Source: a virus
DNA: 22,834 nucleotides
IMG/VR virus record: IMGVR_UViG_3300013101_000105
Span: 1-22,834 of that record
Direction: 5' to 3' (one strand)
A program made the position numbers and the translations under genes. The notes under the pieces were generated by a model. It ran no database searches, was not told the DNA's origin, and saw only the letters and a list, made by a program, of their open reading frames with translations. The first letter of the stretch is position 1, and each line of letters starts with the position of its first letter. Positions 53 to 16,678 of this stretch are shown one piece after another.

Positions 53-718
53 CTAAACCTGAATTTCATCTTCCTTAGACTCACTTTCTCCCTTGTCCGC
101 TGGGGTTGTGCTGACAGGTTTATTTTTCATCTTCTCTGTATCCGGTATAAACTTATTACACATAACGATATTATCAGTTCTCTCCTTACCTACACTCCTG
201 GACGTATCCTTGCCGTATAGTTGATCTGCGAAAGTCGCAGGGCATTCTTGTACCTCTAACTGACAATAGTCACAGGCGTGTATGTCCGGGTCCTCCAGTT
301 TATCGAGTCCCATTCTATAACGCAACATTTGGAATTCCCTTATCAATTCCTCTTTGTTAATCTCTTCGGTGATCTTGAACTGTTCTTCAACGAATTTACC
401 ACCTTTCGATTCTCTTGTCTGATAGAATATTCTATCAAAATTCAAATCTTTCACCTTTTTCGCCGCTTCCTTTAAAATCATATCGGCTGTGCTTTCCGCG
501 AAAGTACCGTCAGAAAACACCTTATGTGAGGGACATCTTAAATACAATTCAGAGGCTATCATAATACAAGCATTAATCCAATTATGTGCCGTCTGATTAC
601 TTTCTGTCAACCTGCGGGCTATTTCCCTTTTTCCAAGATTCAATAATCTTTTGTCAAGCTTGACCTTAGACATGTTCTGTTTTTCCGCTTCCTTCGTTTC
701 TTTTTTCTGTTCTGACAT
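53..718 (-). CDS. unknown protein with a Cys-rich patch, 221 aa
   Basis: I do not recognise a family. The start chosen is the ATG at 718-716, which has AAAGGG six bases upstream. A longer reading from a TTG at 733 would place that Shine-Dalgarno inside the gene. The first 25 residues are charged (Lys/Glu-rich) and include an N-terminal SKVK basic patch like that of other proteins here. The middle is helical and charged. Around residues 147-160 a His-Ala-Cys-x2-Cys-x6-Cys patch suggests metal binding, although a fourth ligand is not obvious. The C-terminus is polar and probably disordered. The gene starts one base after the stop of the small membrane protein at 720-839, so the two are probably translationally coupled. 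Confidence 0.8.
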   Translation of the reverse strand: MSEQKKETKEAEKQNMSKVKLDKRLLNLGKREIARRLTESNQTAHNWINACIMIASELYLRCPSHKVFSDGTFAESTADMILKEAAKKVKDLNFDRIFYQTRESKGGKFVEEQFKITEEINKEELIREFQMLRYRMGLDKLEDPDIHACDYCQLEVQECPATFADQLYGKDTSRSVGKERTDNIVMCNKFIPDTEKMKNKPVSTTPADKGESESKEDEIQV

Positions 719-719
719 T

Positions 720-839
720 TTATTCCCTTTCAAAAAATAGTTTTATAATTATTAATCCTATAAGAGCTATAACCCCGTTAAATACTATAAGGCAACTCCA
801 CGGCTCATCCATCAATAATAAATTCAAAGTGTGTAACAT
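720..839 (-). CDS. small predicted membrane protein, 39 aa
   Basis: A short open frame runs from ATG at 839 (or the adjacent ATG at 842) to TAA at 722-720. GAGG lies five bases before the ATG at 839. The product has a polar N-terminal third (with Asp-Glu-Pro-Trp) followed by about 20 hydrophobic residues rich in Ile, Leu and Val. It ends in a charged Phe-Glu-Arg-Glu tail, so it looks like a single-pass membrane protein. It fits exactly between neighbours: it starts ten bases after the stop of the upstream gene and ends one base before the next ATG. A holin-like or superinfection-type role is possible for such small phage membrane proteins, but nothing in the sequence shows it. Confidence 0.6.
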   Translation of the reverse strand: MLHTLNLLLMDEPWSCLIVFNGVIALIGLIIIKLFFERE

Positions 840-849
840 CATAACCTCA

Positions 850-1173
850 CTACGGATAACGTATATTAAGGAAATTATCCAAACCGTGACGTACAGTCAC
901 ACCTTTTTCATACGCGTATTTCACCTCTCTATCAGCGCCTAACGATTCCCCAGGCAATCTTAAAAGATAATCACAAAGAGTAATTAAATGGAAATCATGT
1001 TTCATCCAATCCTCGTATGGTCTTGGGTATATTAAGTGTTGGAAGTGCGTTAACAGGGGAAGGATAGGACAAAAGCCCGCAGTCATTAATTTATCTCCCG
1101 CGTCAATCTGTGCTCGTACATTTTCCGCCTGATTACCTATTGTATAGGGGCTGGCTACATACACAGTTTCCAT
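850..1173 (-). CDS. nucleoside 2-deoxyribosyltransferase-like protein (DUF4406 type), 107 aa
   Basis: The protein opens with a beta strand and the motif Val-Ala-Ser-Pro-Tyr-Thr. It continues with a helix containing Gly-Asp-x-Leu, a Pro-x-Leu-Pro-Leu-Leu-x-His segment, an acidic Trp-Met-x-x-Asp region, and Leu-Pro-Gly-Glu-Ser-x-Gly-Ala-Asp-x-Glu. This order matches the small Rossmann-like N-deoxyribosyltransferase/DUF4406 proteins common in phages; the Glu of the PGES segment is the expected nucleophile. Family members exchange or cleave nucleobases from deoxynucleosides, so a role in nucleotide salvage or precursor supply is a fair inference. The ATG is preceded by GGAGG at six bases. Confidence 0.75.
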   Translation of the reverse strand: METVYVASPYTIGNQAENVRAQIDAGDKLMTAGFCPILPLLTHFQHLIYPRPYEDWMKHDFHLITLCDYLLRLPGESLGADREVKYAYEKGVTVRHGLDNFLNIRYP

Positions 1174-1176
1174 TGC

Positions 1177-1377
1177 CTACCTCCTCCCGTCTTGTTCGCG
1201 TATAAAATCTTTTATTTCAACATTAGTCATTGAGGAAAAACACTCATCACATAAATTAACAGACTTATTAAGAGTACCGGTAAGATAAACAGGTATAACT
1301 TTCTTACTTACTTCACATTTAGTACATATATGTACAATTTCTATAGGTATGTTTATACACCGTTTCACCTCACACAC
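1177..1377 (-). CDS. zinc-ribbon-like small protein, 66 aa
   Basis: Two Cys-x2-Cys knuckles, at residues 18/21 and 43/46, are separated by about 21 residues with beta-type sequence. This is the layout of a small zinc ribbon. The start is a GTG at 1377 preceded by GAGGGGG, and it overlaps the end of the upstream gene by eight bases. A GTG at 1368 is a possible alternative. No catalytic domain is present; it may be a nucleic-acid or protein-binding adaptor. The specific role is unknown. Confidence 0.7.
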   Translation of the reverse strand: MCEVKRCINIPIEIVHICTKCEVSKKVIPVYLTGTLNKSVNLCDECFSSMTNVEIKDFIREQDGRR

Positions 1378-2185
1378 GATTACGCCCCCTCAGTTTTGAC
1401 TTTAGTTTGTTGACACCTTCTTTTCTTGCTGTTTCCTTTTGTAAACTCTTCTCTTTCAATGATAGATTAGTATTTAAAAGGGAAGGCACTACACCCACAG
1501 CTCTTTTCATTTTTTTAATTAATTTCCTCACTCCTGATAGTTTCCTCTCCCAGTCTTCCAGTTTAGGGAATCGACTTTCAACGCCTGAATAAGATTTCAT
1601 TACAGCTATAGCTTTCTGCTTTGTTTTCGGATTCTCACAACGAATAATTAAATCATTATCCTTTGTAAACTGTATAAACGCTGCGCTATTCTGTGCGGAA
1701 TCCGGGCATATTTTATCAAGAGTCTCTAATACTGATATAAACCTTCTTAAATTAATAGCGGTCTTAATTTCCGTAGGTTTAGAGAACGCCCTTTTAAATA
1801 CATCCTGGAAATTAGCGTACTCCCTATTGTAAGTTTTAATTCCTATCTTTTTCTCCCCTCCTGTTTTTCCCGTATGTAAAGAGAAACTTTTATCGGATAA
1901 ATCTACGTGCTCAGTTACTCCACTATATTTCGTATCTCTTGGGATGTTTTTCAACACCTCTTTAACTGTCTCACTTGAGATAGTCAAATCTTGAGGCAAA
2001 GGTGAATTCCTTATAATGACATGCTTTAACATGTTATCGTGTACTGGACCCACCGCTATGACCGCCATACCGTTAGTCCCGATAGTTAAACCTTCCTTAG
2101 TGAAGTGCACATTATCGAGAGCCGGTATGGATTTATCATTTTTCGTAAGATCTACAACCCACAAATTTTGTTTGGAAAATATCAT
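1370..2185 (-). CDS. divergent sliding-clamp-like protein (tentative), 271 aa
   Basis: Residues 1-60 contain a strand-rich pattern with a TNGMAVIAV segment that recalls the ATDGHR-type turn of DNA polymerase III beta domains. Residues 140-200 read as the second half of a clamp domain: a helix with Leu-Arg-Arg-Phe-x-Ser-Val-Leu, then hydrophobic strands ending in a Lys-Ala-Ile-Ala-Val-Met-Lys segment like the final strand of a clamp repeat. If so, it would tether the phage family A polymerase. The last 60 residues are basic (Lys/Arg-rich) and not clamp-like. The protein is shorter than a bacterial beta subunit (about 370 aa), so it would hold two repeats, as in trimeric clamps. The start overlaps the upstream stop as ATGA. 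The fold assignment is an inference from pattern only. Confidence 0.45.
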   Translation of the reverse strand: MIFSKQNLWVVDLTKNDKSIPALDNVHFTKEGLTIGTNGMAVIAVGPVHDNMLKHVIIRNSPLPQDLTISSETVKEVLKNIPRDTKYSGVTEHVDLSDKSFSLHTGKTGGEKKIGIKTYNREYANFQDVFKRAFSKPTEIKTAINLRRFISVLETLDKICPDSAQNSAAFIQFTKDNDLIIRCENPKTKQKAIAVMKSYSGVESRFPKLEDWERKLSGVRKLIKKMKRAVGVVPSLLNTNLSLKEKSLQKETARKEGVNKLKSKLRGRNRV

Positions 2186-2520
2186 AAATTAATCACCCCG
2201 CTTACTCCTTCACGCTCTTTTATCGTATTGTCAATATCATTTAATATAGTATCACTTTCGAGAAAGCTTTCAAAAACACCCTCAACGTTAGATTCATAAC
2301 TATCTAATAATACCTCAACACTGTCAATCATATCGGATAACATCAAATTAACCTCCTCCTCATCAGACTTGCCGTCTATATCTAAACGGTAACACATAGC
2401 ATCTTCAAGATCTCTTCGTATATCTTTAATCAAAGCCTCTTTAAATCGTTCCTGCGCTATACGTGCGGAATCCATAGCCTGGTCAATACTTACCATCTTA
2501 CCTTCGTAATGTGGGTTCAA
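2182..2520 (-). CDS. unknown acidic helical protein, 112 aa
   Basis: No family is recognised. The product is strongly acidic, with an Asp/Glu-rich centre and long amphipathic helices. The TTG at 2520 has GAGG eight bases upstream. An ATG at 2496 with GAAGG four bases upstream would give 104 residues, and I cannot decide between them. The gene lies five bases after its upstream neighbour and overlaps the clamp-like gene by ATGA, so these genes form one translational unit. Confidence 0.7.
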   Translation of the reverse strand: MNPHYEGKMVSIDQAMDSARIAQERFKEALIKDIRRDLEDAMCYRLDIDGKSDEEEVNLMLSDMIDSVEVLLDSYESNVEGVFESFLESDTILNDIDNTIKEREGVSGVINL

Positions 2521-2525
2521 AATAA

Positions 2526-2807
2526 TTACCTCATTATCCTTTGTAAAGAATCGGTTAATTGTAAAGTATAAACATTCTGTAATTCAATAATCGCCTTAGA
2601 ATAACATGATACGTTTAAATCAAAAACGTATCTGAATTTATTAGATTGTATCTGCAATCTCTCCACAGTATTAACATCTAATTTAAAGATATGCTCTACT
2701 ATCTGGACCACAGTACTTTCAAATTTATTATTCCCTCCAATCTGTACCTTACCTTTTCTGTAGAAAAGACCGATTGTCGCTCCGTCCGCATAAACTATAT
2801 ATTTCAA
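2526..2807 (-). CDS. unknown protein, 93 aa; first gene after the left non-coding element
   Basis: The product is a strand-rich protein with no motif I recognise. The start is TTG at 2807 with GGAGGG five bases upstream, a strong ribosome binding site that supports the non-ATG start. It is the first gene of the block downstream of the non-coding element at 2808-3132, where a promoter-like sequence is present (2848-2877). Confidence 0.7.
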   Translation of the reverse strand: MKYIVYADGATIGLFYRKGKVQIGGNNKFESTVVQIVEHIFKLDVNTVERLQIQSNKFRYVFDLNVSCYSKAIIELQNVYTLQLTDSLQRIMR

Positions 2808-2847
2808 AAAACCCTCCAGTATTAAAATAAAACAACTTATTACTGAT

Positions 2848-2877
2848 AATATACTATAATTAACATAATAAACGCAA
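2848..2877 (-). promoter_or_regulatory. possible sigma70-type promoter for the 2807-to-53 gene block
   Basis: Minus-strand TTGCGT (2877-2872) and TATATT (2853-2848) are separated by 18 bases in an AT-rich setting about 40 bases upstream of the TTG start at 2807. The -35-like box TTGCGTTTA recurs at the candidate promoter before the 18305 gene. This is a consensus match only. Confidence 0.4.
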
Positions 2878-2900
2878 GAAAAGAATATAAAAAAAGTATG

Positions 2901-3122
2901 ATTATGCTACATCGCGCATGGGGTATACATATCCGTATTCTCTAATATGTTCAATTCTTATCTTATTCTCTCTATTTTAGGTATTAGAATAAACTACTTT
3001 GAAAATACAGGTTTTACCTTGTAACACCTTAATATTACTATATATATATTATTATTTGTAAATTTTTATTATTAGTATAGTAGTGTGTATACCTGTATAC
3101 CCCATGCGCGATGTAGCATAAT
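2901..3122 (+). repeat. left copy of non-coding element, bounded by a perfect 29-bp inverted repeat
   Basis: Positions 2901-2929 and 3094-3122 are exact reverse complements over 29 bases, with 164 bases between them. Both arms contain CGCATGG and GTATAC. The internal 3041-3080 segment matches 19035-19074 exactly in reverse complement (40 of 40), and 3004-3016 matches 19099-19111 in reverse complement. Arms plus AT-rich interior could be an origin, a recombination or transposition substrate (MITE-like), or the template of a long RNA hairpin. No target-site duplication is obvious. Confidence 0.85.
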
Positions 3123-3132
3123 TATTACTATT

Positions 3133-4470
3133 TTATTGCGTTCTCTTCATCCTTTTAATTTTACGAGCCGTTGACGCTGGAGAAAGACGAGTGATTTTCA
3201 CAGGTTCACCTACTGCTTTCGTATATCTCTCCAGCATCATATCGCAACATACCGGATCATTGTCTATCATAATACCCTTCCTCCCGTTTACTACACAAGA
3301 TAAAAGTGTAGTACCCGTACCAGCGAACGGGTCCAAGACATAACTATTGACGCGGGAAAAGTTACTTATAAAATAATCAGGAAGCTCTATCTTAAAAGCT
3401 GCTTTGTGGTACTTCTTATATTCATCCGTGTTCGTAAATTTCATGGATAATACGTTATCAATAGTACCTCTAAAATCTTTAGTACCTATAATCCGTTTAG
3501 AGCCGTCAGCGCTGAATATAAAAATAAATTCAAATCGGCTATTCAGGATATTACCCCACATAGCTGGCTGAGCGTGTACTTTATCCCAGATAATTATATC
3601 ATTCATTTTCTCCCTAAAATCATTCATGTACTCTATCAACGGTAATTTATTACCGCTAAGATATTGCACATTTACAAACGAGAATTCACAATATTTAATA
3701 GCTTGCTCAGTGAAACGAGTTAAATATTTCAAATACTCAGTATCCGTAAAGTTATCATGATTTGAGATATATTTCTTTTTTCTTACCGGGTCGTTAAAAT
3801 TATGTTTAGTATTATACTGCGGTGACGTAAAACAGATATCAGGTCTTTTCCCAGCGAGTAGGGTCGTATACGTTTCAGGCTTCGTGGAGTCCATACAAGC
3901 TATGATATGTTTATCATTCAAAAGGAGAATATCGCCAAATTTGAATACTTTCTCACCTGTAAACTTGACCGGGTCAGTGTTTACACTCAGTTTCTTTTCT
4001 TTGAATATCGCAAGCCCTTCTATGTCCTTACTGTCGAAACCGTGCGCTGGGGAAACGTCTGTAAAGATTTCACCGGCTTCCATAAGCTTAGATAAACAGG
4101 CGTTATCCCATTCCGCAAGCTCACTTGCTTTATTATCAGATAGTACGAAATCCCATTCTTTACTCTTTTCATTCCAGTTAGAACGTACAACGGGAATGTA
4201 TTTCATTCCTAAAATCTTAGCTGCTTTATATGCTGTATTGCCCGCTTTGATTTCGTTCTCCATATTTAATACTATAGGTTTACGGAAACCGTTCTCGCGT
4301 ATGTAAACTGAAAGCTTTCTCGCGGCCGGGTCATTTTTCCTTGGGTTGTTTTCTAACAGTTTACATCTGTCAACGGATACGGCTAATGTCCTTAAATCTC
4401 CTTCAGGTATGTAAGCGTAATTTCCGGTTGTCGGGTAATCTGCTCTACTCTTCTTCACTTTCTTTATCAT
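3133..4470 (-). CDS. ParB-like nuclease domain plus beta-class DNA methyltransferase, 445 aa
   Basis: Residues about 28-100 form a ParB/sulfiredoxin-type domain (Asn-Pro-Arg-Lys near the start, then Ile-Lys-Ala-Gly-Asn-Thr-Ala-Tyr-Lys-Ala-Ala). This is followed by an N4-cytosine/N6-adenine methyltransferase domain with motif IV first (Thr-Ser-Pro-Gln-Tyr near residue 217) and the SAM-binding motif I last (Asp-Pro-Phe-Ala-Gly-Thr-Gly-Thr-Thr near 380). This is the beta-class order. It should methylate an exocyclic amino group in DNA, probably protecting phage DNA. Motif IV has Gln where the second Pro of SPPY is usual. Both ends are basic. It overlaps the upstream gene by 26 bases and has GGAG seven bases before its ATG. 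It is the last gene of the replication module before the non-coding element. Confidence 0.9.
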   Translation of the reverse strand: MIKKVKKSRADYPTTGNYAYIPEGDLRTLAVSVDRCKLLENNPRKNDPAARKLSVYIRENGFRKPIVLNMENEIKAGNTAYKAAKILGMKYIPVVRSNWNEKSKEWDFVLSDNKASELAEWDNACLSKLMEAGEIFTDVSPAHGFDSKDIEGLAIFKEKKLSVNTDPVKFTGEKVFKFGDILLLNDKHIIACMDSTKPETYTTLLAGKRPDICFTSPQYNTKHNFNDPVRKKKYISNHDNFTDTEYLKYLTRFTEQAIKYCEFSFVNVQYLSGNKLPLIEYMNDFREKMNDIIIWDKVHAQPAMWGNILNSRFEFIFIFSADGSKRIIGTKDFRGTIDNVLSMKFTNTDEYKKYHKAAFKIELPDYFISNFSRVNSYVLDPFAGTGTTLLSCVVNGRKGIMIDNDPVCCDMMLERYTKAVGEPVKITRLSPASTARKIKRMKRTQ

Positions 4471-7187: not shown

Positions 7188-7408
7188 AAAAAGTCCTTTT
7201 CTGACATGAGTAATTCCCATTCTTTTTTACCGTATGTCTTTACGCCGGGGGAATGCGCGTTTATATCTTTTAAACTTGCCGCTCTTAACCTGGCTTTTAA
7301 AGCACTGATCTTTACTTTATTAACCCTCTCCCCTCGTTTCACTTTTCTTATCTTACGCATTCTAAGTATCTTCCAACCTTTTAAAATTTTCAATGATGTA
7401 TTATTCAA
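7175..7408 (-). CDS. small lysine/arginine-rich protein, up to 77 aa
   Basis: The protein is very basic. It contains Arg-Lys-Ile-Arg-Lys-Val-Lys-Arg followed closely by Asn-Lys-Val-Lys, a motif also present in the J-domain protein and in the 67-aa zinc protein. The start is either TTG at 7408 or ATG at 7360 (61 aa); upstream sites are weak for both. It overlaps the next gene by 13 bases. A nucleic-acid-binding role fits the charge but is not shown. Confidence 0.6.
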   Translation of the reverse strand: MNNTSLKILKGWKILRMRKIRKVKRGERVNKVKISALKARLRAASLKDINAHSPGVKTYGKKEWELLMSEKDFLWDR

Positions 7409-7466: not shown

Positions 7467-8510
7467 TCATAGACTATATCTTTTCTTAAAATAATCGTAA
7501 GCTCCGTTTACTTCCACCATTTTATTATGCGCGGTTTCCTTCTCTTTTGTCGTACCGTTCTCCCATTTATCAGGATGCCATTTTAATGCCGATCTTCTCC
7601 ATAGTTTTTTTATTTCCGACTTTTGAACTTTACCTATAAAACCTAAAACAGTACCGTGAATTCTTTCTTGACTTCCGATAGTTGTAAAGAATCTGGAACT
7701 ACGCCCTGAATTATAGTTTGATCGTTGTTGTTTTTGTTGACGTCCGGCACTCCTACCGAAAAAATCAAACGATTCTCTGTCGCTGCCTGAGTCGTGCCCT
7801 CTAAACAAGTCCTTCCAGTAACTACCGTCAGAATAACCTTCATACGGCCAACCGCCAGTACCTGTATTGAACGTGCTATTCCTCCTATTCCTTTCCGCTT
7901 CCTCCTGTTCTTTTTTATCCCGTTTTCTTCGGGCTTCTCTTTCCCTATCTAATCTGTCAAGGTTATCGTAATACTCTTTCCGGGCAGATGCAAAATAATT
8001 AAAAGCTTCTTTATTTAATTTAAACTTAAATCCCATTTTTCCGGAAATAATATTTTCTATATAACGTAGATCGGAATTAATCACAATACGTACGGACATT
8101 CCAGCGAAACGCCCGGATTTAAAAACATACTTGAGGCCAAAACCTTCATTTTCTTTTTTCGCCTTCCGTAAACGTTCAACCCTATCCCGCTTAACGGTGT
8201 CAGCTTTAACCTTATTAATTTTCTTACGCTTTACTTTTCGAACTTTCCGCGCCCGTTCGCTGGGGTGAGGTTTCTCACTGCTTTCGAGGTTTTGGAAGTG
8301 TCTGAAACATTCATCGAAGTTGTGCCATATCTCCCCTGTATTCATATCCACTATTTCTTTGATTGACTGTGCACGATTAAACGGTAAAGATAATCTTATG
8401 TCTTTACGTATAAATACTATAAGGTCTACGGTGAAAATAATTTCTATAGTATCGAATTCATACTCCTGTATAATAATTTCACCTTCTATTTTAACCCGTA
8501 TTCTATGCAT
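7467..8510 (-). CDS. J-domain protein with basic and DUF3820-like segments, 347 aa
   Basis: The last 60 residues are a J domain: helix II Glu-Ile-Lys-Lys-Leu-Trp-Arg-Arg-Ser-Ala-Leu-Lys-Trp, the signature His-Pro-Asp-Lys (His near 311), and a helix III with Val-Asn-Gly-Ala-Tyr. This is the part of DnaJ that stimulates Hsp70/DnaK ATPase, so the protein probably recruits host DnaK. Residues 90-115 are a lysine-rich stretch with Arg-Lys-Val-Arg-Lys-Val-Lys-Arg and Asn-Lys-Val-Lys. Residues about 125-175 resemble the small strand-helix DUF3820 module (Lys-Ser-Gly-Arg-Phe-Ala-Gly-Met-Ser-Val). A charged, Gly/Ser/Arg-rich linker of about 100 residues joins it to the J domain. The ATG overlaps the polymerase stop by eight bases and has AAAGG upstream. 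Its place directly after the polymerase suggests remodelling of replication complexes. Confidence 0.8.
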   Translation of the reverse strand: MHRIRVKIEGEIIIQEYEFDTIEIIFTVDLIVFIRKDIRLSLPFNRAQSIKEIVDMNTGEIWHNFDECFRHFQNLESSEKPHPSERARKVRKVKRKKINKVKADTVKRDRVERLRKAKKENEGFGLKYVFKSGRFAGMSVRIVINSDLRYIENIISGKMGFKFKLNKEAFNYFASARKEYYDNLDRLDREREARRKRDKKEQEEAERNRRNSTFNTGTGGWPYEGYSDGSYWKDLFRGHDSGSDRESFDFFGRSAGRQQKQQRSNYNSGRSSRFFTTIGSQERIHGTVLGFIGKVQKSEIKKLWRRSALKWHPDKWENGTTKEKETAHNKMVEVNGAYDYFKKRYSL

Positions 8511-10389
8511 AAATAACCTTTAAGTCTTTTTTATCATTCCAATTCGTTGTCGATATAGACCAGGAAACTCGTAATGGAATTTCTATTTCCGGCATGTCAA
8601 TCATGAGTAAGGATATCTCTGGTAGAATCTCGTCTTTGTAAGGTAGTAAAGATCTTGGGTATTGAAAGATTATTTCGTCATGTACGTCAAGAATCATTTT
8701 TATATCTGATAAATATTTATTGGTTTTAAGATAATCATATACCTTGACCTGTGCGCGTTTAAGTATTCCAGCCGCTGTCCCTTGTATTTCATAATTAGCG
8801 CCGATATAAGGTTTATCTTTTTGTACATATAATTTACGGCCGAAAGAGGTAGTAATGAAACCGTCCCTTCTTACGCGTTCAATCACATCTTGCGTGAAAC
8901 CGGCTATACGTGAAAATCTGTATCTATAATTAGAGTCTCCCTGTTTTATTTCATCCACCGTCTTTTGTAAAGTTACCGCTACTTTGTCAAGACCGCCGCC
9001 ATACGCTATACAGAAGCCGATACCTTTATAAGCTTTCCTGTGTGTTTTAAATTTCTTAAGGTCGGTTTCTTTTAATTCCCTGGCTTGTTGTATTCCCGAT
9101 TTGTAAATTGGATCGCCTATCCGGGCGAATACTCCATCCATTAAAAAACACTCAACAGTTTTATAATGTATGTCAGCGGCCGGATCACTCTTCATTAAGT
9201 TTAATAATTCAGGTTCTCCCGTATTGTTAACTATGAGGCGCATCTCAATACCATCATAATCTACAGGCAATAATACACTACCTTTTTGAGCTCTAAAACA
9301 TTTCCTTAACGGAACAGGAAACGGGTTTTTCGGACCAGCGTCAGCGCTTACATTCTGCATGTTGGGCCTGTTTGACGTTTTGCGACTTGTCCGGGCAGCG
9401 TTAGAATTTATATTAGGGTTTATATGATCTTTACCCTTAGCATGTCTTAAATACCCTTTGATAGTAGCCAAACCTTTGGTGTAAGATCTCTGTTTTAATA
9501 TTAAATCTAAAATAGGATGGTCATATTTTTCCCGTAAGGTGAATAAAGTGTCTTTATCTGTTGACGGTTTAGGCGTATCACTATCGGTAAATTTTAAGAC
9601 AGGCATTTTATATTTACGAAAGAGAATCCGCCTTACCTGTTCATCACTGTTAAGATTTACATATTCTTTTAGAAGGTCGTAAGATTCTCTTTGTACTTTG
9701 TCAAGCTCAGACTCCATCCACAAAACAAGTTTATCAATATTCGGATAGGATAGATATATACCGTTAGACTCCTCCCATTGTGTGACTTTCACAACTTCAA
9801 TTTCGTTCAGGTAATCGGCGTACCTTCTACTATCTTTCATAAACTCTTTAATGAAAGTGTAGTATAATAAAATAGGTCTTTCCCCGTCCGCTGTCTGGTA
9901 CTCAGTCATTAAATTTACATTTACTAAGTTGTATTTATCCCCAGAAGCTTTCGCCGCTAATTTCACCTTTTTGTCAAGCTCTCTTGAGTATCCGCACAAC
10001 TCCCAACATAGGTAATCTAAAGCGTGAGAGGGAGCCAGGTTCCTCAACACTTGCGACATTATCATAGTATCATGCCAGACCGTTTCATCAGGTACATGTA
10101 CACCGTTCATTTTCAACATTGCAAGCTCAAATTTAAAGTTATGAGCTATCTTTACAATAGAGATATTTTTAAAATAATCTTGTAGATATTTCCAGTTTTC
10201 CTTATTGATTTCAGAATCTATATTGTCAAGACGTCTGACCTCTACTCTACAATCTATAGGATTACCTAAATTGTCAAGTACAGGCCATCCAATACAATAT
10301 GAGAAAATCTTATTCCCGTGATATGGATACAAACCGTCAGTTTCTACGTCGAAGCTACTCACTTTAATTTTTTTAATTTTATTTATCAT
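8503..10389 (-). CDS. family A DNA polymerase with 3'-5' exonuclease, 628 aa
   Basis: The exonuclease domain begins at once: Asp14-Val-Glu16-Thr (Exo I), then Ala-His-Asn-Phe-Lys-Phe-Glu (Exo II). Polymerase motifs follow: Thr-Ser-Arg-Lys-Thr-Ser-Asn-Arg-Pro-Asn-Met-Gln-Asn near 340, motif A Asp-Tyr-Asp-Gly-Ile-Glu-Met-Arg near 376, motif B Lys-Gly-Ile-Gly-Phe-x3-Tyr-Gly, and motif C Val-His-Asp-Glu near 572. There is no 5'-3' exonuclease domain, as in T7-type replicative polymerases. Motif A has Asp-Gly where Ser-Gln is usual. The ATG lies directly after a terminator-like hairpin and its U-tract (10394-10428), with no visible Shine-Dalgarno. It should be the phage replicase, working with the primase-helicase and perhaps the clamp-like protein. 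Confidence 0.93.
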   Translation of the reverse strand: MINKIKKIKVSSFDVETDGLYPYHGNKIFSYCIGWPVLDNLGNPIDCRVEVRRLDNIDSEINKENWKYLQDYFKNISIVKIAHNFKFELAMLKMNGVHVPDETVWHDTMIMSQVLRNLAPSHALDYLCWELCGYSRELDKKVKLAAKASGDKYNLVNVNLMTEYQTADGERPILLYYTFIKEFMKDSRRYADYLNEIEVVKVTQWEESNGIYLSYPNIDKLVLWMESELDKVQRESYDLLKEYVNLNSDEQVRRILFRKYKMPVLKFTDSDTPKPSTDKDTLFTLREKYDHPILDLILKQRSYTKGLATIKGYLRHAKGKDHINPNINSNAARTSRKTSNRPNMQNVSADAGPKNPFPVPLRKCFRAQKGSVLLPVDYDGIEMRLIVNNTGEPELLNLMKSDPAADIHYKTVECFLMDGVFARIGDPIYKSGIQQARELKETDLKKFKTHRKAYKGIGFCIAYGGGLDKVAVTLQKTVDEIKQGDSNYRYRFSRIAGFTQDVIERVRRDGFITTSFGRKLYVQKDKPYIGANYEIQGTAAGILKRAQVKVYDYLKTNKYLSDIKMILDVHDEIIFQYPRSLLPYKDEILPEISLLMIDMPEIEIPLRVSWSISTTNWNDKKDLKVIYA

Positions 10390-10393
10390 TTGT

Positions 10394-10428
10394 AAAAACG
10401 ACCGCCAATCGCTGGGGAAAGGCGGTCG
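10394..10428 (-). terminator. rho-independent terminator or attenuator between ssDNA-binding protein and polymerase genes
   Basis: On the minus strand CGACCGCC and GGCGGTCG form a perfect 8-bp GC-rich stem with a 14-base loop, followed immediately by TTTTT. It sits after the stop of the 10467-11225 gene. The polymerase ATG follows only four bases after the U-tract. The loop carries CCCCAGCG, one copy of the over-represented octamer. Strong ssDNA-binding-protein expression with lower polymerase expression is a likely consequence. Confidence 0.8.
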
Positions 10429-10466
10429 ATCTCTTTCCGGTTTACGGTTTATAAGTGGATAGCTTC

Positions 10467-11225
10467 TTATCTTTTTTTAGCTACTTTCTTTTTTACCGTT
10501 TTTTTTTTGGCGGTAGGTTTGGGTTTCTGTATAGCGTGTTCAATGTTTGCGGATTTGAACATCTTCACTTCATCCACTGTCAACTCTTTCTCAGGCCAGT
10601 CATAGGCTGAAATACGTTCTGCCAGAATTTCGTTTGTATCGTCTTCCTCTACTTCTATATCCTGAGCTTCACAGAAAGCGAGTAAAGAAAGATTGAGTGG
10701 GTCTTCTTCCTTGACTTCTTCCTCGGTTTCTTCCTTGGCTTTTTCGACTGGAGCAGTTTCAGTGGTTTCAGTAGTCCCGGTAGTTTCAGCGGTTCCCGCA
10801 TCGGCTGGCCCGTCAAGTAATTCCACAACACTGACATTTACGAAGTCACCGGAATGTTTTACATTCACCTTGACGGCCGCGCCTTCATCTGAAATAGCTT
10901 CCACAAGGTCTTCAAGTTCCGCAGGATCGTCCGGAGCTTCATATCCCATTTGCTCAATCCATTTACGTGTAAAAGTAAATCCCATTGGAGATTCAAGATG
11001 CATATAATCATAGACAACGTGTCCCTGAAATTCTCCATCTGTAATAATATGCTCACGTTTAATCATAAGCTTCTGTGAAGTCTTACTTTCGACAATTACA
11101 GCTTTCTGTAATTGCGCTATGTAATTCCCTGGAGCTATCTTAACCCCGCCGAACATTGAATCATACTGTGATTGTGAATCATTATAACTTTGCTGCATAC
11201 CCGCTAAGCGATCTTTAAAAGACAT
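10467..11225 (-). CDS. DUF669-like ssDNA-binding protein with basic tail, 252 aa
   Basis: Residues about 20-135 form a strand-rich domain: a Gly-x-Tyr-x-Ala-Gln-Leu strand start, a Lys-Leu-Met-Ile-Lys-Arg-Glu strand, and Phe-Thr-x-Lys-Trp-Ile-Glu-Gln-Met-Gly-Tyr. This resembles phage DUF669 OB-fold ssDNA-binding proteins found next to Sak-type recombinases. A Thr/Glu-rich low-complexity linker (about 145-175) follows, then a short acidic helical segment. The end is a lysine-rich tail (Lys-Lys-Lys-Thr-Val-Lys-Lys-Lys). Most bacterial SSBs end in an acidic tail, so this end is unusual. It should coat ssDNA for replication and annealing. It is followed by the terminator. Confidence 0.65.
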   Translation of the reverse strand: MSFKDRLAGMQQSYNDSQSQYDSMFGGVKIAPGNYIAQLQKAVIVESKTSQKLMIKREHIITDGEFQGHVVYDYMHLESPMGFTFTRKWIEQMGYEAPDDPAELEDLVEAISDEGAAVKVNVKHSGDFVNVSVVELLDGPADAGTAETTGTTETTETAPVEKAKEETEEEVKEEDPLNLSLLAFCEAQDIEVEEDDTNEILAERISAYDWPEKELTVDEVKMFKSANIEHAIQKPKPTAKKKTVKKKVAKKR

Positions 11226-11280
11226 GGTAAATCCTTTCGCATTTGTAAAGTAACATTTTAATTAATTGGTGAAAATTTTA

Positions 11281-12171
11281 TTACGATTTTTTTAGAACTT
11301 TTTTCTTTAACGATTTTTTAAACTTACTTGCCCCTTTCTGTACGAAGGTTGTATTATACGGTAATTCTTGTAAATTATTGAACGCATTAATTAAATTCTC
11401 ACACGCCTCCTCTTCACTTCCACCCATTGGTATTTTGTGTACGGGCTCACCTGACGGCGTCATGAAATGGCCTTTCATCCTATTTTTGGCTATAATATGC
11501 TCATCGCCTATTATTTGGAGCCACCTTTCGCCGTTTACAAAATGATAATAAAAAATGTTTGGGACCTGCGCACACAAGAATTGATACGCTTGTTTAGGCA
11601 GGTCAGGCGCCAAGGCGTTATATTTCTTACCGCTTATAGTTGTAAGCTCTTTTTCATCGGTATGACATAAGGCAAGGAACCCGTAATCACTCATCATTAA
11701 CTCTCTTACAAGAGGGATAAATACCTTCTTAACCTTGTTCCAGCTTGCTCCGTAATCGTTCATACCGCCCGGGTGCTCGAATCCATATTTCTTACCAGCG
11801 TATTCCATAGCCAGGTCATAAGCCACTTGCACATTGTCAATTGACAGAGTGGTAAAATCATGATTACCTTGCAGGAATTCCTCTTTTAAATCTTTGAAGT
11901 CTTCCCAACATTTTACATTATCCATTACATATGCGTAACTATCATTCGGTTCAAACATTAAATTGTAAACCTTACCCATCATGTTCGCCAGCGTAGTTTT
12001 ACCGCTTCCGTAAGGGCCGTGAATAAGTATAGGGTAATCACCTAAACTCTGGCTGGGTACGTGCTTTACTTTAGACATTTTTTTCTTTGTACGCATAGAT
12101 ATGGATTTTTTAACAGCCTTCTTTTTTGGCACTGTCTCCGTGTTCTTTTCCATCTTTTTTATAACTGCCAT
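11281..12171 (-). CDS. Sak4-like P-loop ATPase, 296 aa
   Basis: Walker A Gly52-Pro-Tyr-Gly-Ser-Gly-Lys58-Thr-Thr and Walker B Thr-Leu-Ser-Ile-Asp112-Asn are in the RecA-core arrangement of phage AAA_24/Sak4 proteins. An Ala-Leu-Cys-His-Thr-Asp sensor-like strand follows at about residue 170. Sak4 proteins are small RecA-type ATPases that bind ssDNA and help single-strand annealing recombination, typically with a phage SSB, which is the next gene. The first 36 residues and the last 20 are lysine-rich extensions outside the ATPase core. The ATG overlaps the upstream stop as TAATG, with GTGGAG just before. Confidence 0.8.
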   Translation of the reverse strand: MAVIKKMEKNTETVPKKKAVKKSISMRTKKKMSKVKHVPSQSLGDYPILIHGPYGSGKTTLANMMGKVYNLMFEPNDSYAYVMDNVKCWEDFKDLKEEFLQGNHDFTTLSIDNVQVAYDLAMEYAGKKYGFEHPGGMNDYGASWNKVKKVFIPLVRELMMSDYGFLALCHTDEKELTTISGKKYNALAPDLPKQAYQFLCAQVPNIFYYHFVNGERWLQIIGDEHIIAKNRMKGHFMTPSGEPVHKIPMGGSEEEACENLINAFNNLQELPYNTTFVQKGASKFKKSLKKKVLKKS

Positions 12172-13241
12172 TATTTCTCCACTTCGTTTAAGGTCGATAG
12201 TTCAGGGAATAATAATTTTCTTTTGTTGTATCCGGACATCTTACCGCTGGCGCAAGCGTCAAGGAAGTTGCACGGGAAAGGTGACTCGCAAGCGTACGGA
12301 TTCTTGTAAAAATCATCACTGCTTTTTTCTGGTCCCATTTCCCCTATGTCGGACAGGACTGATTGAAGCTCGCAAATATAATTACTTTTATCTTTATCCG
12401 TGTAAGGGATCTCATACCTCATAAAATAAAAATCAGGACGTTTTTTCAGGTCTTCTTCTAACCTTATTTTATAATCTACTAAATTTTCATTCACTCTCTT
12501 TCTTATGCCTGGTTTACGTATTATGTTATATAAAACACCGTCTATTTTCTGCTTAAAGATTTTTTCGCATACGGTCAAGTATGTTAAATTCTGGAAATCA
12601 AAGGAGAGGCGTTTCATCATTGTATTTTCTGTTATCCTGCTTTTGGTTTTATGCTCCATAAGCCAGTTTTTACCGCCTTTAATTTCATACTTACCGTCAA
12701 GCTTAATTTTTATAGGTGTGTCAAATAGATCACATACAAGCTCTGTTTCTACTTCTGTGAATTTCTTATCTTTAAAATCCTCCGGGTAGTATTTTATATA
12801 CGCCTCAAGCACTGTGGAAGTAACAGCCTTCTCCCATTCCCATTCCTGTAAGTCGATACCGTCAAGCTTTCCAGCGTCCTCCTGTTCATGCTCATACAAA
12901 TCTATGAGATAATTCAAACAATCGGCTATAGACTCTTTTTTTAATACTACTATCTCGTTATAAGCCCCCTTATAAAGAAACGCGAGAATATCGTGAACAA
13001 GACTCCCGAAACTTGTAGTATGGTTGTAGCCCTCAGATTCCCATTTGTTAATTTTAAACAGAAATAGCCTTTTACATTTCATATAGTACGACATTAAAGA
13101 TTGTGTAATACCGTTCTTCTGTAAAGAATATGACTCATTTGTCATGTCCTTTACTAACGCCGTAACCTTTCTTTTAATCTTTTTTACCGGCACTCTCTTG
13201 GATAACGTTTTCTTTTTCTTAACTATCTTTTTTTTAGCCAT
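12171..13241 (-). CDS. Cas4/RecB-like PD-(D/E)XK nuclease with Fe-S cysteines, 356 aa
   Basis: After a lysine-rich N-terminus (about 30 residues) the protein shows Gly-Ile-Thr-Gln-Ser-Leu-Met-Ser-Tyr-Tyr-x-Lys-Cys56, Phe-Gly79-Ser-Leu-Val-His83-Asp, Lys-Leu-Asp-Gly near 181, Glu-His-Lys-Thr-Lys near 195, and a Gln-x3-Tyr helix. These are the motifs of the PD-(D/E)XK exonuclease core. Near residues 317-331 three cysteines in Ala-Cys-Glu-x4-Cys-x5-Cys join Cys56 as a likely 4Fe-4S site, as in Cas4 and AddB. It probably resects DNA ends to feed the Sak4/SSB recombination genes that follow. The start is ATG 13241 with GAGG seven bases upstream, preferred over ATG 13256. Confidence 0.82.
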   Translation of the reverse strand: MAKKKIVKKKKTLSKRVPVKKIKRKVTALVKDMTNESYSLQKNGITQSLMSYYMKCKRLFLFKINKWESEGYNHTTSFGSLVHDILAFLYKGAYNEIVVLKKESIADCLNYLIDLYEHEQEDAGKLDGIDLQEWEWEKAVTSTVLEAYIKYYPEDFKDKKFTEVETELVCDLFDTPIKIKLDGKYEIKGGKNWLMEHKTKSRITENTMMKRLSFDFQNLTYLTVCEKIFKQKIDGVLYNIIRKPGIRKRVNENLVDYKIRLEEDLKKRPDFYFMRYEIPYTDKDKSNYICELQSVLSDIGEMGPEKSSDDFYKNPYACESPFPCNFLDACASGKMSGYNKRKLLFPELSTLNEVEK

Positions 13242-13780
13242 TCCAAAACCTCGCATACTTTCTGTAATTGTGTAGGAAAATCAGGGCTACTATTACCACC
13301 ACTCCGTATGATATAGGAAGGCCTTAACAGATTACCGTAATCTTTAAATTCATTTTTATAGTGTCTCTCAACTTCTTTCGTAAAGAAAAAAACATATTTA
13401 GGCTTTACAAACTCCATTAATCTGGCAAAATGTTTACTACATGATATAATCTCTTTAGACTTTGGCGGTCTTGTTGAGCCGGCTTTCTCATCAGTAGCGC
13501 GACAAAAAACCATATTAGAAATAAAGATATCAGGCTCCTCAACAGCTACTTTAATCGCCGCACGTTCTACAAGGTTATGTATATACTTACTATCAAAACT
13601 TTGTAAAATTTTCCCAGTAGTTTCTTGAACTTCAGTAATAGTCCCGCCTAAAAAAAGTATATCGGCGGGGTAACTTCCCGCACCTATAAGCGGACGTCTG
13701 CCGGCTTTACGGGTAGTATGCAGTAGGCAGTCATCACACTCACGGATGTCTCTAATAAAGTTTGGTAATCTATCGCTCAT
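13223..13780 (-). CDS. UDG-superfamily (family 4-like) protein with altered active site, 185 aa
   Basis: The four cysteines Cys15, Cys18, Cys93 and Cys114 match the 4Fe-4S ligand order of family 4 uracil-DNA glycosylases, and the surrounding pattern agrees: Asp-Ile-Leu-Phe-Leu-Gly, Asn-Met-Val-Phe-Cys-Arg, Lys-Pro-Lys-Tyr-Val-Phe. The catalytic motif usually Gly-Glu-Ala-Pro-Gly-x2-Glu reads Gly-Gly-Thr-Ile-Thr-Glu (45-50), and the motif usually His-Pro-Ser reads Arg153-Pro-Ser-Tyr. It may therefore bind DNA without normal uracil excision, or act on another base. The start is ATG 13780 behind GGAGGGAAGG, overlapping the upstream stop as ATGA. The 3' end overlaps the nuclease gene by 19 bases. 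Confidence 0.72.
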   Translation of the reverse strand: MSDRLPNFIRDIRECDDCLLHTTRKAGRRPLIGAGSYPADILFLGGTITEVQETTGKILQSFDSKYIHNLVERAAIKVAVEEPDIFISNMVFCRATDEKAGSTRPPKSKEIISCSKHFARLMEFVKPKYVFFFTKEVERHYKNEFKDYGNLLRPSYIIRSGGNSSPDFPTQLQKVCEVLEWLKKR

Positions 13781-13980
13781 TTTCCTTCCCTCCAATAATC
13801 ACAAGTTATAGAAGAACACCAATAATATCTATAATTAGTAGCTAATTTACAGCCGCAATTTTCAGGGCAACGCTCTTCTATTATACGCCCCATTGTTAAA
13901 TCAGGTTTCTCTACACGCTTTACTTTGGATATCTTCCTCTTTACTTTTCGTACTTTTCTAACGGGCGTCTTAACATCCAT
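13777..13980 (-). CDS. small zinc-ribbon protein with basic N-terminus, 67 aa
   Basis: Residues 7-24 are Arg/Lys-rich (Arg-Lys-Val-Arg-Lys-Val-Lys-Arg-Lys-Ile-Ser-Lys-Val-Lys). The C-terminal half has Cys38, Cys42, Cys44, Cys55 and Cys60, enough for one zinc site. A basic arm plus zinc ribbon suggests a nucleic-acid-binding accessory protein, and its neighbours are a resolvase and a UDG-like protein. The start overlaps the resolvase gene by 40 bases and AAGGGAT lies about ten bases upstream. No exact family is recognised. Confidence 0.7.
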   Translation of the reverse strand: MDVKTPVRKVRKVKRKISKVKRVEKPDLTMGRIIEERCPENCGCKLATNYRYYWCSSITCDYWREGK

Positions 13981-14447
13981 AAATCATTATCCCTTCTCAA
14001 TCCCATAGCTACAGAATCGGCTATGTGTTCATTATCGTACACTTTACCACTTATCAATTTAATCCTATAGTCTGTCGCTTCTTTCGTTAATTGACCTTTC
14101 CAAGCCCCAGGGGATACGAGAGTAAAAGGTATATTTTTTATAGCACATCTATCCGCGTAAGTAATAACACAAGTCTGGAGGTGAAACAAAGCGCCTGTCT
14201 CACCGGCTACTTGACTCTTAAGGGAACCGCTCCAAAGTTCAGGCTCCTCAAGTGTTACATGCGCTGGAGTGAGACTGTCAAGCAAGTTTGAAAATGTTTC
14301 CCCGGCGAATCTTATATAATTCTCTTTTGTCTTACGTAAAGCGGCCTCATGATTTATTATACCTGTTAACGGGTTTACTGTTCCGTTGAATAGTGCATAT
14401 CCGGTATGTATGCCGGTATCCACGAATAATTCGTTTTTAGGAATCAC
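13941..14447 (-). CDS. RuvC-like Holliday junction resolvase (RNase H fold), 168 aa
   Basis: The catalytic set is visible: Asp10 in Phe-Val-Asp-Thr-Gly, Glu67 in Thr-Leu-Glu-Glu-Pro, and His141 with Asp144 in Glu-His-Ile-Ala-Asp-Ser-Val. This is the RuvC order and spacing. The length (168 aa) matches the usual 160-175. A Gly-Glu-Thr-Gly-Ala-Leu segment follows the central Glu. It should cut four-way or branched DNA made by recombination and replication before packaging. The start is GTG 14447 with GGAGG six bases upstream, overlapping the upstream gene by 11 bases. Confidence 0.75.
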   Translation of the reverse strand: MIPKNELFVDTGIHTGYALFNGTVNPLTGIINHEAALRKTKENYIRFAGETFSNLLDSLTPAHVTLEEPELWSGSLKSQVAGETGALFHLQTCVITYADRCAIKNIPFTLVSPGAWKGQLTKEATDYRIKLISGKVYDNEHIADSVAMGLRRDNDLWMLRRPLEKYEK

Positions 14448-14715
14448 GATTATCCTCCAAAAAAGTTTTCACATACTGTAAAGATTCAAAGTATTTCTTT
14501 TTCTGACTTAACGGCTCTCCTGGAAACGGGTAGAAAAGTTTCCATTTGTCGGCACGTGCTAAATAAACTATAGAGTAAGTACATGTTTTAGTTTTTACTA
14601 TAATCCTGGGTACACCAGCGCGTGTAAGGTTGAACTCACCTTGTAGGAATAAAGAAGCCTTGCCTACATGTTTCTTAATTTCCTCCGGATCCTTTAAACG
14701 TTTTCTCGTAGACAT
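14437..14715 (-). CDS. unknown protein, 92 aa
   Basis: No family is recognised. The product is a basic mixed alpha/beta protein with an aromatic-rich central strand region (Trp-Lys-Leu-Phe-Tyr-Pro-Phe-Pro) and charged helices at both ends. The ATG overlaps the SNF2-like gene stop as TAATG and has GAGGAAAGG upstream. It is wedged between a helicase and a resolvase, so an accessory role in recombination is possible but unproved. Confidence 0.7.
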   Translation of the reverse strand: MSTRKRLKDPEEIKKHVGKASLFLQGEFNLTRAGVPRIIVKTKTCTYSIVYLARADKWKLFYPFPGEPLSQKKKYFESLQYVKTFLEDNRDS

Positions 14716-16070
14716 TATACGGCCTTTCCTCTAATATGTTTTGACATGCTCAGTAGAGTTTCCTGTTTACTCTCTTTTCTTATGATGGAATCAACTATGA
14801 CCTCTTCTATAGTATCCTCAGCCGTTAAGTCTATGATCAAATCGACTTCAGCCACGTACGGATTATTCATCCTTTTCTCAGTCTGTAAACGTGTTTCCAA
14901 CCCGAGAGGGGAGCTGAAATATACCGTAACGTCAGCTTTATTAATAGTAGCTCCGTACTTTAAACATTCAGGTTGACAATAGAGAACCTGTATTTTATTA
15001 CCCTGGAAATTATTTATTAAAGAATCCCTCTCATTTATACTTACGGTTCCGCTTATCATACCACTTTTTATTTTTAATCTGTCAAGTAATAACCCTATAT
15101 GATGAAGCTCGAAAGTATGCACAGCCCATATAATAATCTTACTATTTTTTAATTCACCTAATAAGAGGTCTTTTAAAACTTCAAGTTTTGTGCCGTCAAT
15201 AGGTTTAATAGTATCTCCATACACTGACTTATTAAGTATAAAGCCTGAACATAATTGACGTAATAGGGAATATTTACTTACATTGTAATCAGTAGCTACC
15301 ATAATATTATCATACTGTAAAACAAAATTCTTACATAAATTTTTATAAGCCTTCATTGTCTTATTTGATAGTCTGAACACCCTTCTCTCATAAACAACTT
15401 TATTATATAGACCGGCGTCAGCTTGGGAGATAGTAATACAAAATTTACTTACCCTATCCGTCAAGAATTTCAAACCTGTTTCCGATATACAATAACTATG
15501 TGCATCATATTTTATAAATAATTCATGTCTAAAATGCCAGTAATCTTTAAATCCTAAAATTTTAGGATCAAGAAATTTTAATTGTTGGAAAATATCAAGT
15601 TCACTTTCCGGCATAGGTGTACCAGTTAATATATACCGCCTGTCAACGTCTCTATATCCCTTTGTGTAATGTTGCGACATTTTTGTCGTTGGATTTTTTA
15701 AACTCGTAGATTCATCATACACTACAGACTTAAATTTTTTATTTACAATTTCTGGAAACGATAAATGGTTTTCCCTATTGACAAGTTGGAAAGGGCTTTG
15801 ATTAAATAGGCTTTCCTGTCGTTGTTTCTTTGTTCCATGTATCAAATGTATATCATTTTTATCTACGTTAAAGGTGTTAATTAATTCCTGTTTCCATCCG
15901 TACAGAGCTGAGTAAGGCCCCACAATTAACGCCGGTAAAGTATTATTACTAAGTATGTCGAAGATAGTTAAACGTGCCTTACCTAAACGCATATCGAGGA
16001 AATACGCTGGGTGAGAAACGGTTTTACTATAGTAAAACGCCGTACGTTGATGTTTAGCCAGTATTCTCAT
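14715..16070 (-). CDS. SNF2-type superfamily 2 helicase/translocase, 451 aa
   Basis: Motif I reads Asp26-Met-Arg-Leu-Gly-Lys31-Ala, motif II Asp-Glu-Ser-Thr-Ser near 119, motif III Leu-Thr-Gly-Thr-Pro near 148, and motif VI Gln-Thr-Glu-Lys-Arg near 399. The second RecA lobe includes Ile-Ile-Ile-Trp-Ala-Val-His. Compact SNF2/SSL2-like helicases of this size are common in phage replication modules and remodel or unwind DNA, often at branches. The residue after the Walker lysine is Ala instead of Thr/Ser, which may weaken ATP hydrolysis. The ATG is 12 bases from AAAGGA, a weak spacing, and a 13-bp hairpin lies just upstream. Confidence 0.85.
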   Translation of the reverse strand: MRILAKHQRTAFYYSKTVSHPAYFLDMRLGKARLTIFDILSNNTLPALIVGPYSALYGWKQELINTFNVDKNDIHLIHGTKKQRQESLFNQSPFQLVNRENHLSFPEIVNKKFKSVVYDESTSLKNPTTKMSQHYTKGYRDVDRRYILTGTPMPESELDIFQQLKFLDPKILGFKDYWHFRHELFIKYDAHSYCISETGLKFLTDRVSKFCITISQADAGLYNKVVYERRVFRLSNKTMKAYKNLCKNFVLQYDNIMVATDYNVSKYSLLRQLCSGFILNKSVYGDTIKPIDGTKLEVLKDLLLGELKNSKIIIWAVHTFELHHIGLLLDRLKIKSGMISGTVSINERDSLINNFQGNKIQVLYCQPECLKYGATINKADVTVYFSSPLGLETRLQTEKRMNNPYVAEVDLIIDLTAEDTIEEVIVDSIIRKESKQETLLSMSKHIRGKAV

Positions 16071-16091
16071 AAGTAAATTAAATCCTTTTAT

Positions 16092-16121
16092 ATTTAGGGT
16101 ACTTATTTAAGTACCCTAAAT
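16092..16121 (-). other. perfect 13-bp hairpin between the lysine-rich gene and the SNF2-like gene
   Basis: Positions 16092-16104 and 16109-16121 are exact reverse complements with a 4-base loop. On the minus strand no U-run follows (ATAAAAGG does), so it is not a standard terminator. It could be an RNA processing site or a translational control element, being 21 bases upstream of the next ATG. Confidence 0.7.
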
Positions 16122-16129
16122 TATTGAAA

Positions 16130-16678
16130 TTATTTTTTAATTTTTTTCAGCTTTTTAACTTTTTCAATAGGAGCCTCTTCTTTTTTCTCCTCTTTACTTT
16201 CAGGCGTGCTTCCTATATCATATTTCGCCTTTAAAGCCTTTTTAATAGGGCTCTTTTTTACTGACGGTTTTTTCGGCTTTCTCGGTACTGTAGAAGCTGG
16301 TACAGGTAAGTCATCTACTATTACGATTCTTTCGTAAGGTATTTCCTGTTTAGGTACAAAACAGTTAGTACCGTTATTTATATGCCAGCGTACTCCTGAA
16401 ACCTTGCCTGGTTTATACTCCCCAAGTTCTGGGAACTTCTTTTCAGTCAATTTAGAGATATTAGTATCTGTGTGTATCTGTGCGGTAATCAAATCAGTTA
16501 CATACTTTCTTTGAGCTTTTTTACCTGTAAGCTCCTCAGTTTCCGTTTTGTCAATAGGTTCCTTGATGTCTTTTTTAATAGCTTTTTTAATAGCTTTTTC
16601 CGTAACCTTATTGATCTTCTCAGCGGGATCCTTAACTGGTTTTTTTACCACTGTTTTCTTCTTAATCTTTACGGCCAT
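16130..16678 (-). CDS. lysine-rich, histone H1-like protein, 182 aa
   Basis: The first 45 residues and the last 55 are dominated by Lys with Pro, Ala, Val and Ile (for example Lys-Lys-Pro-Ser-Val-Lys-Lys-Ser-Pro-Ile-Lys-Lys-Ala). They flank a small globular part (about 58-115) with a possible winged-helix end, Val-Arg-Trp-His-Ile-Asn-Asn. Two basic arms around a small domain is the layout of H1-like DNA-compacting proteins. DNA binding is therefore likely, but homology is not established because low-complexity basic tails arise easily. GGAGG lies six bases before the ATG. Confidence 0.65.
   Translation of the reverse strand: MAVKIKKKTVVKKPVKDPAEKINKVTEKAIKKAIKKDIKEPIDKTETEELTGKKAQRKYVTDLITAQIHTDTNISKLTEKKFPELGEYKPGKVSGVRWHINNGTNCFVPKQEIPYERIVIVDDLPVPASTVPRKPKKPSVKKSPIKKALKAKYDIGSTPESKEEKKEEAPIEKVKKLKKIKK

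Follow-up and report, generated by a model that had tools for sequence, protein, structure and literature searches.

Polybasic ends on the replication and recombination proteins of a phage as candidate electrostatic tethers

The replication module and its basic segments

The window analysed here, IMG/VR record IMGVR_UViG_3300013101_000105, is a complete contig of 22,834 bases (C1) found in a bin of 209 contigs and 1.17 Mb. It hosts a phage replication module, with tail genes after it, and several of the replication and recombination proteins carry basic terminal segments, which are described below. Profile families identified in the window include a family A DNA polymerase (PolA), a primase, a SNF2-type helicase, a Sak4-like ATPase, a Cas4-like PD-(D/E)XK nuclease, a RuvC-like resolvase, a uracil-DNA glycosylase (UDG), a ParB domain fused to a DNA methyltransferase and a DnaJ-domain (J-domain) protein. 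The virion genes were taken from G145, an IMG/VR phage contig 97% identical to the window. The tract 67-194 of the window aligns with the start of G145 (93%), and G145 matches also the opposite end of the window. To judge from these matches, the phage genome is probably closed on itself, at roughly 46 kb.

Two proteins have been assigned by their predicted fold. The 271-amino acid (aa) protein has 38 PDB matches at E <=0.001, all of them to clamps (beta, PCNA or related), with a best E of 1.8e-6 and query TM-scores of only 0.30-0.46. One of the 10 members of its family matches phrog_947 (polymerase processivity factor), and two weakly match a family named RusA. The modelled fold, at these moderate scores, identifies a putative sliding clamp. 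The 252-aa protein has a predicted OB fold, the nearest structure found by Foldseek being the single-stranded DNA (ssDNA)-binding PrgE (E 5.5e-5). Matches to three PHROG single-strand DNA-binding families were obtained for 3, 3 and 1 of the 14 members of this family, and none for the window protein, which on its model is a putative ssDNA-binding protein (SSB).

All the window gene segments located hereafter lie on the minus strand. Basic tails had been signalled in the preliminary description of the window at the N-terminus of the Cas4-like nuclease, at the C-terminus of the SSB and at both ends of the Sak4-like ATPase, of the methyltransferase (where they are short) and of the H1-like protein, and all are there. 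The Sak4-like tails, read at both ends in the orthologues too, correspond to 12058..12171 (N-terminal, including MSKVK) and 11284..11334 (C-terminal). The Cas4-like tail (13146..13241) includes VKKIK, and the protein probably starts at MAKKK. The C-terminal tail of the SSB corresponds to 10470..10532. The ParB-methyltransferase starts with MIKKVKK (4450..4470; MIRKIKKVK in the G151 relative) and ends with RKIKRMKR (3142..3165). The basic regions of the H1-like protein span 16544..16678 and 16133..16276. Overlooked earlier were the basic C-terminal tail of the sliding clamp (1373..1543), supported by model, clamp fold and orthologues, and the MINKIKKIK N-terminus of PolA (10363..10389).

Three smaller segments complete the set. 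Near the N-terminus of the 67-aa zinc protein RKVRKVKRK is followed by ISKVK (13918..13959); every codon of this gene is the same in L025, a 97% identical phage contig. The 77-aa protein carries RKIRKVKR-GERV-NKVK (7310..7357). The ATG at aa 17 is its probable start, which would make the motif N-terminal; in the G151 orthologue the basic tail is found at the opposite end, the C-terminus. In the J-domain protein the segment RKVRKVKRKKINKVK (aa 88-102, 8205..8249) is internal, and orthologues from the two relatives having the gene, G151 and L073, start at the basic stretch. The window protein has thus about 82 extra aa ahead of it, encoded by 8265-8510 and absent in both relatives, perhaps as the result of a fusion.

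Gene starts are inferred. Those of several tailed proteins are backed by upstream sequences such as GGAGG (H1-like) and GGAG (Sak4-like), and wrong start codons were for these discarded as a source of tails. The true starts of the 77-aa and Cas4-like proteins probably lie downstream of the longest-ORF start.

A basic peptide shared within the phage

The sequence RK[VI]RKVKR, reported in the preliminary description for the J-domain, 67-aa zinc and 77-aa proteins, was recovered in precisely these three of the 29 non-virion window proteins. It is missing in this phage's 31 virion open reading frames (ORFs; 30 or 31, according to de-duplication), in 261 ORFs of the bin and in 500 local-composition shuffles. 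The bin set derives from 20 of the 209 contigs, processed with a crude caller, and the phage may have a host other than the bin; ORFs of at least 60 aa were used in motif and shuffle tests (n=261), of at least 80 aa in the terminal-charge test (n=230). Two of the 20 contigs, C6 (L008) and C18 (L020), have a deviating G+C content (0.49 and 0.45, most of the bin being near 0.36) and are possibly foreign to it.

At the DNA level, a pattern search found MGNAARRTNMGNAARGTNAARMG at exactly three window sites, 7335-7357 (77-aa protein), 8227-8249 (J-domain) and 13937-13959 (67-aa protein), and in none of 100 dinucleotide shuffles. The J-domain and 67-aa proteins are identical over the nine residues RKVRKVKRK, and the C-terminus of the methyltransferase is a near copy of the motif. 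The shorter forms announced for the Sak4-like ATPase and for a 226/221-aa protein (MSKVK, 659..673) are confirmed by the pattern [VIM][NS]KVK, found in these two and in the J-domain, 67-aa and 77-aa proteins, i.e. in 5 of the 29 non-virion proteins. The pattern occurs in none of the 31 virion and 261 bin ORFs, and none of 500 shuffles gets to 5.

RK[VI]RKVKR is made of a pentad, [IVM]-x-K-[VI]-K, which occurs at 12 sites in 8 of the 29 non-virion proteins. In 200 block shuffles the means are 2.1 sites and 2.0 proteins, and the maxima 7 and 6. The J-domain, 67-aa and 77-aa proteins have two pentads each, and PolA has two overlapping ones at its N-terminus. The ParB-methyltransferase, Sak4-like, Cas4-like and 226-aa proteins have one each. 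The counts in virion (1/31) and bin (20/261) ORFs both fall inside the null range. The excess is seen also when no pattern is chosen beforehand. Patterns of six residues with at least three K/R, present in at least three window proteins, are 34 (null mean 6.1, maximum 13), and those of seven residues are 19 (null mean 0.4, maximum 2; 60 block shuffles in either case). Three exact 7-mers are common to window proteins (null mean 0.15, equalled in none of 300 shuffles), as are four exact 6-mers (equalled in 7 of 300). The 21 common 5-mers were equalled in 32 of 300 shuffles and are not significant. A comparison of the best 14-mers of all protein pairs by BLOSUM62 was negative, the observed maximum being 38 and shuffled proteomes getting up to 46.

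The J-domain and 67-aa copies feature three synonymous and no nonsynonymous differences in the first eight codons; the 77-aa copy differs from either by six synonymous changes and one nonsynonymous change. The motif DNAs of the Sak4-like and 67-aa genes are 77% alike across 31 nucleotides (repeat family D13). Duplication of DNA repeats or genes as the sole cause was rejected, because window repeats are short and the motif copies differ mainly at synonymous sites. The copies may descend from an old copying event and have been kept by selection on the peptide. The motif pattern was found in six IMG/VR contigs, one being this phage; the other five lack RK[VIM]RK[VIM]K in called ORFs, and a longer form had no match in IMG/VR. 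The pentad excess plausibly reflects a tail sequence specific to this lineage, arisen through copying or convergence, on top of a general requirement for charge.

Basic ends in relatives and controls

Nineteen IMG/VR loci were retrieved with the G145 terminase and 44 by polymerase alignment. Of the latter, 15 (L072-L086) were taken for the comparison of tails. L078, nearly a duplicate of L077, was removed afterwards, which leaves the window and 14 relatives. L111 was tabulated once and then excluded; L087-L115, 14 genome-contig loci and 5 cultured-phage loci entered the profile search only. The set includes 132 orthologues, two of which, being truncated, were excluded from the terminal-charge count. 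For L074 and L075 the ParB-methyltransferase entry is the methyltransferase. G151 (49 kb) and G149 (42 kb) have the same modules as the window, and their Sak4-like proteins are 51% and 33% identical to the window protein. Single-protein scans of IMG/VR (PolA, Sak4-like, J-domain, primase) and tblastn searches of cultured phages with the Cas4-like, J-domain and SSB proteins were unproductive. Among 145 genomes (the bin and its relatives) the Sak4-like protein was found in the window alone.

Ends were scored as strongly basic when the net charge of the terminal 20 residues is +6 or more. Such ends recur at given positions of given proteins: the C-terminus (10/14) and N-terminus (6/14) of the Sak4-like ATPase, the C-terminus of the SSB (10/14; the last 15 residues are at +5 or more in 12/14) and of the clamp (5/10), the N-terminus of the Cas4-like nuclease (5/13) and either end of the ParB-methyltransferase (4/13 each). 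PolA has none at both ends (0/15), the primase and RuvC have few, and the N-termini of UDG and SNF2 reach the threshold in 3/14 and 2/12. Internal 20-mers with this charge are 31 out of 3466. The SSBs feature in addition an acidic stretch between OB fold and end, with a minimum net charge per 20 residues of -5 to -20 in the 14 members; in the window protein a linker (aa 141-172, 10710..10805) is acidic and modelled at a predicted local distance difference test (pLDDT) score <50.

An equal occurrence of tails on virion proteins, or on all host proteins with the same codon bias, had been envisaged in the preliminary description as contrary evidence. Both comparisons turned out in favour of its proposal of a shared module. 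Basic ends are nearly absent from virion proteins of G145, G151 and G149 (N-terminus 2/87, C-terminus 0/87), and are infrequent in bin ORFs (13/230 and 11/230), where they probably include ribosomal-type proteins. Both virion exceptions are one and the same protein, whose gene directly follows that of the portal in G145 and G149 (L031:6397-7368 and L065:11685-12584); we would guess that it is a minor head protein contacting DNA. Two other virion proteins, encoded in G151 (L061:8755-10116 and L061:13398-14516), share an identical stretch of 19 residues (LVFDADLVASNTIDMDVNG region), perhaps a common surface domain.

The charge of the tails is independent of the G+C content of the genome, which ranges from 26 to 59% among the relatives (Spearman -0.01, n=14); L086, at 59%, has ends as GRRKHSKR and RKPRSRKKK. 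Codon bias is thus not the cause of the tails. Lysine codons are AAG in 33 of 83 cases in tails and in 152 of 566 elsewhere, and a bias towards A-runs was similarly rejected. Comparison with distant homologues, as earlier proposed, showed that basic ends are missing in the Sak4-like proteins from phages of Enterococcus, Lactobacillus and Gordonia. Only two of nine outgroup matches reach +6 at the C-terminus, one from Yersinia phage vB_YenM_P744.

Residue order was evaluated as identity anchored at the terminus versus 200 shuffles. The observed identity was reached by 8 shuffles for the Sak4-like C-terminus, 36 for the Cas4-like N-terminus and 189 for the clamp C-terminus, and at these ends composition is therefore kept more than order. 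Tails can also shift, as seen for the other terminus used in the G151 77-aa orthologue and for the J-domain stretch, internal here and N-terminal in G151 and L073. In 12 of 13 relatives the pentad is no more frequent than expected from shuffles; the weak exception is L086 (2 of 27 proteins, reached by 5/200 shuffles). The similarity of tails within a genome is weak (mean 18.91 versus 18.05, sd 0.34, maximum 19.12, in 8-residue block shuffles; reversal P 0.018). A stronger concordance (18.91 versus 16.98) was discarded, because whole-tail shuffles spread the basic residues. The hypothesis of one common module holds only in part. Unrelated replication proteins do share an extra basic segment, net-positive and external to the folded domains. 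A single address tag is not sustained, since tail sequences change across the 14 relatives and the pentad excess is clear only in this phage. Conserved charge and local pentad excess point to two layers, a clade-wide positive charge and a lineage-specific peptide.

Tethers, docking tags and other explanations

The explanation favoured here, with moderate confidence, is that the polybasic ends are flexible electrostatic tethers. Of the three roles earlier proposed (address tag, DNA tether, condensate-forming segment) the DNA tether is the simplest. The tails, most of which are presumably disordered, would make the Sak4-like ATPase, Cas4-like nuclease, SSB, clamp and ParB-like protein bind more tightly to single- or double-stranded phage DNA. 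In a speculative second step, they could also contact the SSB through its acidic linker, a possible partner of basic tails. The enzymes would thereby be held together at replicating DNA.

Tails were modelled for two proteins. That of the SSB has a pLDDT of about 60 and lacks secondary structure from aa 234 onward. In the clamp aa 222-244 score <50, and a low-confidence helix is predicted at aa 241-268, hence this tail may not be simply disordered. Other data similarly speak against charge alone. Some order is kept at the Sak4-like N-terminus (anchored identity 0.175 versus 0.102 over 12 residues, reached by none of 200 shuffles), where M-[APTG]-x-[VI]-[KR]-[KR] is recognized by eye in 7 of 13 rows, and at the SSB C-terminus (1/200), beyond the need of a pure charge tether. 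Nor does such a tether foresee the pentad shared in this phage. The SSBs of G149 and L075 have no tail, and relatives share ancestry, so that tail counts are not independent.

Known DNA-binding and docking signals were compared. The core of AT-hooks is GRP, and clamp-binding motifs are glutamine-aromatic peptides fitting Q-x-x-[LM]-x-F or a variant; neither was found in the 33 window proteins. Basic tails of H1-like character are present also in mycobacterial HupB. The available part of a report on T4 gp32 describes the LAST motif, KRKST at residues 3-7 and KRKTS in the core (PMC12893549). As the window tails, it is a short basic stretch, set near the terminus of a phage ssDNA-binding protein; its targets are an acidic protein surface or ssDNA, which are also those proposed here. 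Unlike them, as far as that part of the report goes, LAST is made of three basic residues followed by two Ser/Thr, and serves gp32-gp32 cooperativity rather than several families. The pattern (K/R)3(S/T)2 is missing in the 33 window proteins and occurs five times in the 132 orthologues. The acidic SSB linker and the basic tails, if they do meet, would also resemble the acidic core surface of gp32 proposed, in the same portion of text, to meet the basic LAST (PMC12893549). Mycobacterial topoisomerase I likewise has a polybasic tail beyond its folded domains, 27 residues long, which according to the accessible text aids DNA relaxation and promotes DNA binding and activity (PMC7192597), a biochemical precedent for tethering. 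There the tail belongs to one cellular enzyme, here to several proteins of one phage replisome.

The E. coli SSB, which in the portions available of two reports acts as a condensate-forming hub (PMC12143593, PMC10164576), has a disordered region able to gather partners. It differs in having a disordered linker and a C-terminal tip, whereas the SSBs of this clade mostly end basic, the linker is acidic and the partners are basic-tailed. SSB-tip-like ends (VPDCIPF, DGLPF, DTGVPF, NDIPF) were noticed on non-SSB proteins, namely the L074 clamp, the ParB C-termini of L073 and L077, and L038:9410-12016, the polymerase of Yersinia phage P744. Hub peptides have possibly been exchanged between proteins, as window-clade SSBs mostly end basic. 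P744 shares with the window the PolA-Cas4-Sak4 order, and its Sak4-like, SSB-like and helicase proteins are likewise basic at their ends. It is a remote relative, and the C-terminus of its Cas4-like protein is acidic.

Alternatively, the pentad, doubled as it is in three proteins, could be a docking motif or address tag for one hub, such as the acidic SSB linker, the clamp or a host protein. The sharing of basic patterns beyond local composition and the mostly synonymous differences among motif copies fit this idea, as does the T4 gp32 N-terminal motif, which binds a protein surface according to the part of the report available (PMC12893549). G149 similarly carries [IV]R[KE]RK on 5 of 56 proteins, all of DNA metabolism or modification by orthology, but this FIRKRK-type motif was chosen in hindsight and does not reach significance when no pattern is fixed in advance (16/60). 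The null pentad level in most relatives, the weak within-genome similarity of tails and the negative BLOSUM62 test make docking rather unlikely. A specific tag is possible for this phage alone, at the same low probability, and is not conserved over the clade. A bolder variant, quite improbable on present data, is that each lineage has its own short docking code on unrelated replication proteins ([IVM]-x-K-[VI]-K here, [FY]IRKRK in G149), read by one acidic hub such as the SSB linker. Hub and tags would co-evolve, keeping the replisome of one phage together and apart from others.

Tails could also be neutral or nearly neutral low-complexity additions, lacking a shared function and promoted by A-rich codons, translation-initiation preferences or gene overlaps. 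Lysine-rich N-termini can help translation initiation, tail sequences drift, and the DNA coding for several N-terminal tails overlaps the final part of the preceding gene (RuvC/67-aa, UDG/Cas4). Their confinement to particular proteins, at both termini, over 26-59% G+C and with nearly none on virion proteins renders this origin unlikely. The preference for AAG is unlike A-run slippage, and the H1-like protein has lost no K/R among the five aa differences which distinguish it from its L025 orthologue. Anchoring of replication to the inner face of the host membrane is very unlikely. Basic and hydrophobic residues do alternate in window pentads, and the lysine-bearing amphipathic tail of TubY binds membranes and DNA, as stated in the accessible part of its description (PMC7762940). 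The L080, L084 and L086 tails, however, are rich in K/A/P/T/R and have few hydrophobic residues.

Compared with these alternatives, electrostatic tethering to DNA remains our preferred reading. Polybasic tails as such are known; what is new is their conserved placement across one phage replisome, and no description of such shared tails in phages was found in the open-access literature (subscription papers were outside the scope). Polybasic tails are usually described enzyme by enzyme, whereas here they decorate the same small set of proteins across a clade spanning 26-59% G+C. If they act jointly, shared electrostatics may be enough for phages to organise a replisome, with neither a nucleus nor a dedicated scaffold.

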